Assembly: GCF_009858175.1 (NCBI RefSeq) | Contig: NZ_CP047393.1 | Coordinates: 2,604,001 to 2,668,000, forward strand | DNA: 64,000 nucleotides | Origin: Pontibacillus sp. HMF3514 | GTDB lineage: Bacteria; Bacillota; Bacilli; Bacillales; BH030062 | Direction of reading: 5' to 3' | Shown: positions 3,279-4,319 of the stretch, in pieces | Layout: the number at the start of each line of letters is the position of its first letter | How positions within the stretch are numbered: the stretch's first letter is position 1 | Notes under the pieces: model-generated | Told to the model about the DNA's origin: nothing | The model's database searches: none | Seen by the model: the letters and a program-made list of their open reading frames with translations, nothing else | Program-made: the position numbers and the translations under genes

Positions 3279-3354
<76 letters not shown>

Positions 3355-3536
3355 AATATTATTAGGTTTCCACTACTTTTATGCGGTGTTAAGATGTTTA
3401 TTCAGTGATGAGTTTCCTTGCTGTGCTCGTCACGACAATGATTACTCTACTAGGTGCTGGGCTGCTCCTCGCAGATCCTACAATGATGTATGATCAGCGA
3501 TGATTACGGATCCTCTACCGACTGAGCTACCGAGCC
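3355..3536 (-). repeat. tRNA-linked repeat, copy 1, ending in a duplicated tRNA-Phe 5' end
   Basis: Between tRNA-Ser and tRNA-Phe there is a 158-bp stretch (3355-3512) followed by an exact 24-nt copy (3513-3536) of the 5' end of tRNA-Phe, acceptor strand plus D arm. The stretch shares a ~65-bp core (about 3429-3493) with the region upstream of tRNA-Asn: TGCTCGTCACGAC, GGGCTGCTC.TCGCAGATC and CCTACAATGAT occur in the same order. The core abuts the tRNA copy through GGATC in both. No ORF is present. The arrangement looks like an element flanked by a target or att duplication, but its nature is unknown. Confidence 0.75.
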
Positions 3537-3612
3537 GTTTTGGTTTTTTAAGATTAGATGAAATCCAAAATAAAAAAAGAGAACATCTGACTTGTTCTCA
3601 GTAAGTAAGATA

Positions 3613-3705
3613 TGGCGGAGGAGGAGGGATTCGAACCCCCGCGAGGCGTGAACCTCCTGGCGGTTTTCAAGACCGCTCCCTTCAGCCAGACTTGGGTACT
3701 CCTCC
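3613..3705 (-). tRNA. tRNA-Ser (TGA)
   Basis: A 93-nt minus-strand class II tRNA with acceptor GGAGGAG/CTCCTCC, anticodon loop CTTGAAA giving TGA, long variable arm and encoded CCA. Confidence 0.95.
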
Positions 3706-3714
3706 GAGATATGA

Positions 3715-3791
3715 TGGTGGACCCTGCAGGACTTGAACCTGCGACCGATCGGTTATGAGCCGATAGCTCTAACCAGCTGAGCTAAGGGTCC
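3715..3791 (-). tRNA. tRNA with CAT anticodon, probably Ile2 (lysidine-modified)
   Basis: Minus-strand cloverleaf with acceptor GGACCCT/AGGGTCC, anticodon loop CTCATAA giving CAT, and encoded CCA. The body resembles the B. subtilis Ile2 tRNA (GGACC...GGTCC acceptor), which TilS converts to read AUA. The other CAT tRNA of the cluster has the elongator Met body. Confidence 0.85.
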
Positions 3792-3798
3792 TATTATA

Positions 3799-3875
3799 TG
3801 GGGCGATTGAAGGGAATCGAACCCTCGAATGCCGGAGCCACAATCCGGTGCGTTAACCACTTCGCCACAATCGCC
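3799..3875 (-). tRNA. tRNA-His (GTG)
   Basis: Minus-strand cloverleaf with the extra 5' G opposite discriminator C typical of tRNA-His, anticodon loop TTGTGGC giving GTG, and encoded CCA. Confidence 0.95.
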
Positions 3876-3912
3876 ATATTAGTTAAGGATCCATCATGAT
3901 ATTGTTATGTAT

Positions 3913-3989
3913 TGGTGGCGGCGGAGGGGATCGAACCCCCGACCTCACGGGTATGAACCGTACGCTCTCGCCAGCTGAGCTACGCCGCC
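3913..3989 (-). tRNA. tRNA-Met (CAT), elongator
   Basis: Minus-strand cloverleaf with acceptor GGCGGCG/CGCCGCC, anticodon loop TTCATAC giving CAT, and encoded CCA. The body matches the B. subtilis elongator Met tRNA closely and lacks the initiator-type 1-72 mismatch. Confidence 0.92.
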
Positions 3990-3990
3990 C

Positions 3991-4065
3991 TGGCTCCAAC
4001 GGCAGGATTCGAACCTGCGACCGATCGGTTAACAGCCGATAGCTCTACCACTGAGCTACGTTGGA
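3991..4065 (-). tRNA. tRNA-Asn (GTT)
   Basis: Minus-strand cloverleaf with acceptor TCCAACG/CGTTGGA, anticodon loop CTGTTAA giving GTT, and encoded CCA. First complete gene of the operon. A near-copy of its 5' end lies upstream at 4222-4245. Confidence 0.95.
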
Positions 4066-4066
4066 A

Positions 4067-4245
4067 TAATGTAAAATGAACAACAATGTTTGTAGAGATT
4101 AAGGTGACTACTCAAGTTGTTATTTCTTTTATGCTCGTCACGACCCAAGCTTATTCTGCTAGATGATGGGCTGCTCATCGCAGATCCTACAATGATACTG
4201 AATCATCGATGTTTATGGATCCTCTACAACTGAGCTACGTTAGAA
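4067..4245 (-). repeat. tRNA-linked repeat, copy 2, ending in a duplicated tRNA-Asn 5' end
   Basis: A 155-bp stretch upstream of tRNA-Asn is bounded on its far side by 4222-4245, which matches the 5' end of tRNA-Asn (4043-4066) at 22 of 24 positions. The inner part (about 4135-4195) is related to copy 1 near tRNA-Phe. The operon promoter lies beyond it, so the primary transcript should begin with leader, partial tRNA-Asn, repeat, and only then the full tRNA-Asn. No coding frame is seen. Confidence 0.75.
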
Positions 4246-4290: not shown

Positions 4291-4319
4291 AATATAACAT
4301 GTTACAACTATATCGTCAA
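4291..4319 (-). promoter_or_regulatory. Sigma-A promoter of the tRNA operon
   Basis: On the minus strand TTGACG (4319-4314) and TATATT (4296-4291) are separated by exactly 17 nt. Transcription should start near 4284, upstream of the partial tRNA-Asn copy. Confidence 0.8.

Follow-up and report, generated by a model that had tools for sequence, protein, structure and literature searches.

How did two related sequences, each headed by the 5' end of a tRNA, come to lie within a single tRNA operon? The case is found in Pontibacillus sp. HMF3514, in a window of 64,000 nucleotides (the whole stretch of DNA that was analysed), where one sequence directly precedes tRNA-Phe and the other tRNA-Asn. The original prediction offered two answers, a small element inserting at tRNA D arms or a tRNA-primed copying event. 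We consider it very probable that both are copies of an insertion element about 140 bp long, non-autonomous and non-coding, which targets tRNA genes, mostly in the D arm.

Structure of the locus

The operon is read on the minus strand, which is the tRNA strand, in the order Asn, Met, His, Met, Ser, Phe. Its relevant features are as follows.

4291-4319, minus strand: promoter-like site of the tRNA operon, TTGACG-17-TATATT (consensus match alone)
4222-4244, minus strand: 5' flank of element 1, a copy of nt 1-23 of tRNA-Asn with 21 of 23 identical (sequence comparison)
4183-4221, minus strand: P2 hairpin of element 1, base GAUCC/GGAUC (structure model)
4132-4182, minus strand: P3 of element 1, a stem closed by UGC/GCA with two tandem GA/GA steps, 3' end GACGAGCA
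4066-4131, minus strand: tail of element 1 and leader of tRNA-Asn
3991-4065, minus strand: intact tRNA-Asn(GUU)
3513-3536, minus strand: 5' flank of element 2, a copy of nt 1-24 of tRNA-Phe with 24 of 24 identical
3474-3512, minus strand: P2 hairpin of element 2 (structure model)
3424-3473, minus strand: P3 of element 2 (structure model)
3355-3423, minus strand: tail of element 2 and leader of tRNA-Phe
3279-3354, minus strand: intact tRNA-Phe(GAA)

In the direction of transcription, each unit thus runs from the copy through core and tail to the intact tRNA. The two related stretches that had been predicted are present, but the unit is longer, about 180 nt, with 182 nt from copy to tRNA for Phe and 179 nt for Asn. 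The inner cores do resemble each other, sharing 83% identity across 77 ungapped nt, and the block TGCTCGTCACGAC is exact in both. Comparison with tRNA-Phe bears out the perfect 24-nt copy; the Asn copy is likewise real, but the 22 of 24 matches first claimed for it include one leader T, the match to the mature tRNA being that listed above. In 2000 mononucleotide shuffles of both intergenic stretches, the best match to a tRNA 5' end did not exceed 16. Element 1 lies between the promoter-like site and tRNA-Asn; two such sites were found in the region versus 2.5 expected by chance.

A terminator-like hairpin, GAGAACAAGTCAGATGTTCTC followed by a T run (3579-3599, minus strand), lies between tRNA-Ser and the Phe element. 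By eye, a similar sequence is present in the element-free congeners G001, G004, and G005, and tRNA-Phe may therefore depend on read-through or on a promoter of its own.

A covarying two-hairpin core

A first structural model (R1), comprising the P2 hairpin and the P3 stem with its tandem GA/GA steps, was built from nine Pontibacillus cores; matches then served to build two wider models (R2 and R3). In the congener G006, three P2 base pairs are changed on both sides at once. Among 71 distinct sequences, pairing is kept in 99% at the P2 base and 98% in outer P3, with lower values of 72% in upper P2 and 74% in inner P3, a poorly aligned region. The fold and covariation check suggested with the original prediction yielded 195 double-change cells in these 71 sequences, against a background of 55 in shuffles and no more than 40 after sliding the partner, on an alignment that was fitted to the structure and so favours it. 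Because the margin is this large, and because a first count on a MAFFT alignment had already given 4 pairs versus 0.7, we regard the fold as real: the core is a covarying two-hairpin structure. Covariation is equally compatible with RNA and with single-stranded DNA and cannot tell them apart.

Single sequences are thermodynamically no more stable than their shuffles (z 0.24 and -0.97). Applied to whole units, RNAalifold suggested pairing of the copy in Phe units, but none that Phe, Lys, and Met units share. A search of the two window elements against Rfam 15 returned no match at the gathering score or at E up to 5, and 16 loci of relatives, searched at E up to 1 or 0.1, gave only the neighbouring tRNAs and nothing over the elements. 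A known Rfam RNA (group I or II intron, T-box, or any other family) was ruled out, as no covariance model matched.

Filled and empty sites

The most direct evidence for insertion comes from a tRNA-Asn gene preceding Thr-Glu-Val, at which G006 carries the element and the orthologous site of its congener G007 is empty. In G006 a 39-bp target (the last 16 nt of leader and nt 1-23 of the tRNA) occurs twice, 179 bp apart, with 140 bp of element between the two copies; the flanks are identical to those of G007 at 258 of 267 compared bases, the upstream limit being the end of the G006 contig. The outcome is an intact tRNA downstream and its 5' fragment upstream. A duplication of 39 bp is long for a transposon. 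The comparison of orthologous operons that had been proposed also showed the window's operon to be empty in six of the eight genomes of the genus. G003 has one Phe site where both copies of the leader, that in front of the tRNA copy and that in front of the tRNA itself, can still be made out. The empty site, the duplication, and the D-arm junctions described below all support a small element inserting at tRNA D arms. Against this stand the length of the duplication and the fact that G006/G007 is the sole clean filled/empty pair, the ends of the duplication being blurred elsewhere.

Two readings start instead from tRNA genes that were once complete. According to one, the copies are simple remnants of deleted tRNA genes; besides the tRNA 5' ends, its only support is the additional tRNA pieces found in G009 (Melghiribacillus) and in G055. 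This reading is contradicted at the G006 site, where the empty counterpart has just one complete tRNA, and the covarying core common to several genera also speaks against it, so that it is hardly credible. The concern raised with the original prediction, an ancestral complete tRNA in place of the copy, is thus excluded for G006/G007, whereas G009 and G055 do keep more tRNA around the core.

The same two genomes also bear on the second reading, in which a whole tRNA was duplicated in tandem and the element then inserted into the upstream copy, whose 3' part was lost. By eye, tRNA sequence goes on after the core in both (CAGTCGGTAGAGCA), followed by a second degenerate core and a piece resembling an anticodon arm; likewise by eye, the Aquisalibacillus Lys element L105 continues GAGCATCTGAC as tRNA-Lys does, its sister L092 having one difference. 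However, the clean G006/G007 pair has the 39-bp duplication alone, without a tRNA 3' part, and we consider tandem duplication quite unlikely.

Junctions and target tRNAs

Junctions were compared in a set pooled from 73 and 58 matches, which left 116 rows after removal of repeats and 112 distinct cores; the search models came from tRNA-linked members, which biases the tRNA share of this set upward. A tRNA starts on the same strand, the only strand checked, at most 420 nt downstream of 109 of the 112 cores, and in 99 the 5' end of this next tRNA is copied over 9 nt or more. Of the remaining 13, five directly follow the CCA end of a tRNA, five precede a tRNA without a recognised copy of its 5' end (L073, L088, L090, L093, and L116), one is cut by the contig end (L032), and two lack any tRNA (L079 and L080).

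Copies in 100 distinct units fall into two length classes, 9-14 nt (41 units, the shortest of which can include chance matches) and 23-31 nt (59 units), with none between. The targets are Phe (36), Asn (24), Lys (20), Met (10), Thr (8), and Gly (2). The D-arm target predicted as common to the two window copies holds in many genera: the copy ends in or beside the D arm in 98 of the 100 units, typically after GGTAGAG(CA), GGTGGAGCA, or GTAGCT, the exceptions being the two Gly copies, which run to nt 31 in the anticodon stem. Where the copy is at least 11 nt long, the type of the downstream tRNA is its unique best match in 96 of 96 cases. Long copies are perfect in 38 of 59 cases. The other 21 differ from their tRNA, which disfavours an intron with the first copy as its 5' exon.

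On the core tree, parsimony requires 29 changes of target (shuffle mean 54) and 37 changes of genus (shuffle mean 76); this tree is based on 86 columns, with 53 of 95 forks open and most weak. As both labels are structured, the core tree alone cannot separate spread from descent.

Occurrence within Pontibacillus

The window's genome contains four good core matches, each directly before tRNA-Asn or tRNA-Phe. Besides the pair in the window there are thus two further copies, again before Asn and Phe, and the element occupies two of the three tRNA-Phe and two of the four tRNA-Asn genes. Within the genus it is found in three of eight genomes, with four copies in the window's genome, four at the same places in G003, and one elsewhere in G006; in the other five, the widest model finds nothing even at E ≤ 1. 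The nine Pontibacillus cores, of which five precede Asn and four Phe, group as a single clade (SH-aLRT 99), the pattern that spread of the core from tRNA to tRNA inside the lineage would give. The tails of the four elements common to the window's genome and G003 have identities of 0.43-0.74 among each other and 0.83-0.88 to their counterparts, and by this sequence comparison we take the four to be inherited.

Distribution beyond the genus

The search for the core in related genomes that the original prediction called for revealed a real family. Across the order, it matches in 39 of 397 genomes, 24 of 135 genera, and, by listing, 13 families (R2, E ≤ 1e-3); in two of the 39 genomes, G029 and G346, the match is near threshold and away from any tRNA. 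In a sample of the phylum, only one of 398 genomes matched, namely the window's own. A pattern scan of named genomes found 37 stretches, every one confirmed by R3, in Alkalibacillus, Allobacillus, Aquibacillus, Thalassobacillus, Tenuibacillus, Halobacillus, Melghiribacillus, Aquisalibacillus, Pontibacillus, Piscibacillus, Filobacillus, Gottfriedia, and Oceanobacillus.

Carriage by phages or plasmids was rejected on the basis of blastn searches in which the window's Phe element had no match in phages and two dispersed relatives had none in 72,556 plasmid records. Two pattern scans of viral contigs returned zero and one hit, the latter being unlike the element and having no model match at E ≤ 0.01.

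Conservation and a possible role as RNA

In 53 long copies outside tandem arrays, identity between the two leader stretches is about 0.8 next to the tRNA and drops to about 0.28 at a distance of 21-30 nt, whereas identities of 0.92-1.00 are kept at tRNA positions 1-23. This pattern fits an original duplication that included the leader, which then decayed, the tRNA part being held by selection or gene conversion.

The four orthologous elements of the window's genome and G003 are 0.95 identical in both copy and P3, 0.85 in the tail, and 0.80 in P2. Gapped columns number 2 of 724 in these parts versus 68 of 249 in the 60 nt upstream, where identity is 0.80 over ungapped positions and 0.48 when gaps count as differences. 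These values, from four loci in one species pair, suggest constraint on the shared elements, clearest in P3. Among 85 position-matched pairs, which are not independent and were selected at a P3 identity of 0.75-0.985, identity is 0.93 in the copy, 0.54 in the leader just upstream, and 0.50 in random background. Judged from these alignments, the shared elements appear to have been inherited vertically under constraint, something for which a purely selfish remnant would have no need.

Such figures, together with the same-strand tRNA downstream of nearly all cores, also agree with a cis-acting leader RNA, in which the tRNA 5' copy and the two hairpins would act at the RNA level to control tRNA maturation, for instance by offering the 3' half of the tRNA a decoy or another partner. 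Several observations count against it. The element is absent from most relatives, more than a third of the long copies carry scattered changes relative to their tRNA, similar cores occur away from tRNAs in some genera, and P2 and the tail are barely above the ungapped upstream bases. Gene conversion accounts equally well for the identity of the copy, and leader identity falls gradually with distance. We therefore consider this role possible but doubtful; it is compatible with an origin by insertion.

Possible mechanism and relation to known systems

Starting from insertion as the preferred origin, an enzyme supplied in trans would recognise the folded core, as single-stranded DNA or RNA, and make one cut in the D arm and another in the leader, some tens of bases away; repair of the two cuts would then make the long duplication. 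Insertion into an essential gene would be tolerated because the duplication regenerates the tRNA. Later the leader part would decay, and the tRNA-derived part would stay near-identical through selection or gene conversion. As candidate routes, single-stranded DNA (Y1-like) and RNA appear similarly probable, and a Cas1-like integrase less so. The element and the tRNA probably share a transcript, and the element could have been co-opted as a leader RNA, a possibility suggested by the sequence comparisons above.

An unlikely alternative is a SINE-like retroelement, in which a structured RNA joined to, or primed at, the D arm of a tRNA or pre-tRNA would be copied back into the genome, carrying along the pre-tRNA leader and 5' fragment. 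On this view, the two junction classes (about 9-14 and 23-28 nt) would mark the points at which RNA is cleaved or primed in the D arm, and the 5' fragment would have been retained as a working part of the RNA. Like the units described here, eukaryotic SINEs fuse a tRNA 5' part to a conserved central core that occurs with varied tRNA heads. In our case, however, the head matches the tRNA at the insertion site and so derives from the target.

tRNA genes are favourite docking sites for mobile DNA, usually gene-bearing islands. The clean 140-bp element encodes no integrase, unlike tRNA-targeting integrative elements. In MITEs, the target duplication is short (2-14 bp); the clean element, in contrast, has a 39-bp duplication and, by eye in this one case, no terminal inverted repeats, its ends being AGACCGTAAC and AAAATACTGT.

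Among short bacterial repeats, bcr1 of the Bacillus cereus group is a MITE-like, non-coding dispersed repeat that is partly transcribed and structured (PMC3446304, PMC6542083, PMC2267715). The present family is similarly short, non-coding, dispersed, structured, and probably transcribed, and like bcr1 it has no transposase of its own. Compared by these descriptions, the two differ in that the mobility of bcr1 is tied to a TTTAT motif, whereas here the target lies in tRNA genes and 39 bp are duplicated. GTAG-tagged REPs are thought to be mobilised by RAYT (PMC3733652). They resemble our element in the hairpin next to GTAG and in the proposed mobilisation in trans via a folded single strand. However, the GTAG before P2 belongs here to the target tRNA and not to the element, and the duplication is long; most Met-type flanks read GGTGGAGCA, and the dispersed relatives inspected lack a consistent GTAG. 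Casposons carry genes and TIRs and duplicate a 14-bp segment at the tRNA 3' end (PMC6614799). The preference for tRNA genes and the target duplication are casposon- or Cas1-like, and the growth of tandem arrays is reminiscent of CRISPR repeats, but the clean element has neither genes nor TIRs. Neither bcr1 nor REPs nor casposons are thus a complete match.

In literature on tRNA-linked repeats that included few subscription journals, we found no description of such an element. Here a gene-free sequence of about 140 bp has the D arm of several essential tRNAs as its target and, by duplicating that target, spares the host. Since the family combines a covarying fold outside Rfam 15 with a defined target, a duplication of defined extent, and one natural pair of filled and empty sites, both the mobilising enzyme and a possible role of the 5' tRNA fragment can be put to experimental test.

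Tandem arrays and dispersed relatives

Tandem arrays of copy-core-tail units before a single tRNA occur in G009, G040, G349, Thalassobacillus, and Aquibacillus. Loci with such arrays are L064, L049, L036/L039, L099, L110, L085, and L111. In a Thalassobacillus devorans record, two units precede tRNA-Asn (L111), and L112 and L096 have one. At L026, L028, and L036, each of the two D-arm sites of a pseudo-tRNA-Phe was, by eye, apparently struck by a core.

A sensitive search of 30 chosen genomes at E ≤ 1, in which counts include tRNA-linked matches and many matches are weak, gave 55 matches in G137, 23 in Filobacillus (G265), 20 in G346, 15 in G036, and 12 each in G029 and G049. Forty stretches from this search comprise intergenic repeats, copies after CCA, copies adjacent to rRNA, and some before tRNAs. 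Many of the dispersed stretches share a UGCGAnGAG ... GGAGCA-like core, which may reflect either common descent or repeated use of one motif, and the related cores may be dispersed repeats in other genera. The original prediction had identified cores without any tRNA copy as evidence against it; such dispersed repeats do exist in some other genera, and they widen the family while the insertion reading stands.

Related cores lie directly after the CCA of tRNA-Leu(taa), tRNA-Arg(acg), and tRNA-Gly(gcc) at L129-L133 (G137) and L155 (G036), and such post-CCA cores recur in several operons of one genus. Dispersed intergenic families of about 100-200 bp with a GA-rich core are found at L134-L140 (G137) and L141-L148 (G346), and further ones at L121-L127 (G029) and L150-L154 (Filobacillus); any of these could be treated as a separate repeat family. 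In G049 a core (L160) is located between 23S and 16S, on the opposite strand to both, and in G029 another (L128) adjoins, by eye, an apparent antisense 5S.
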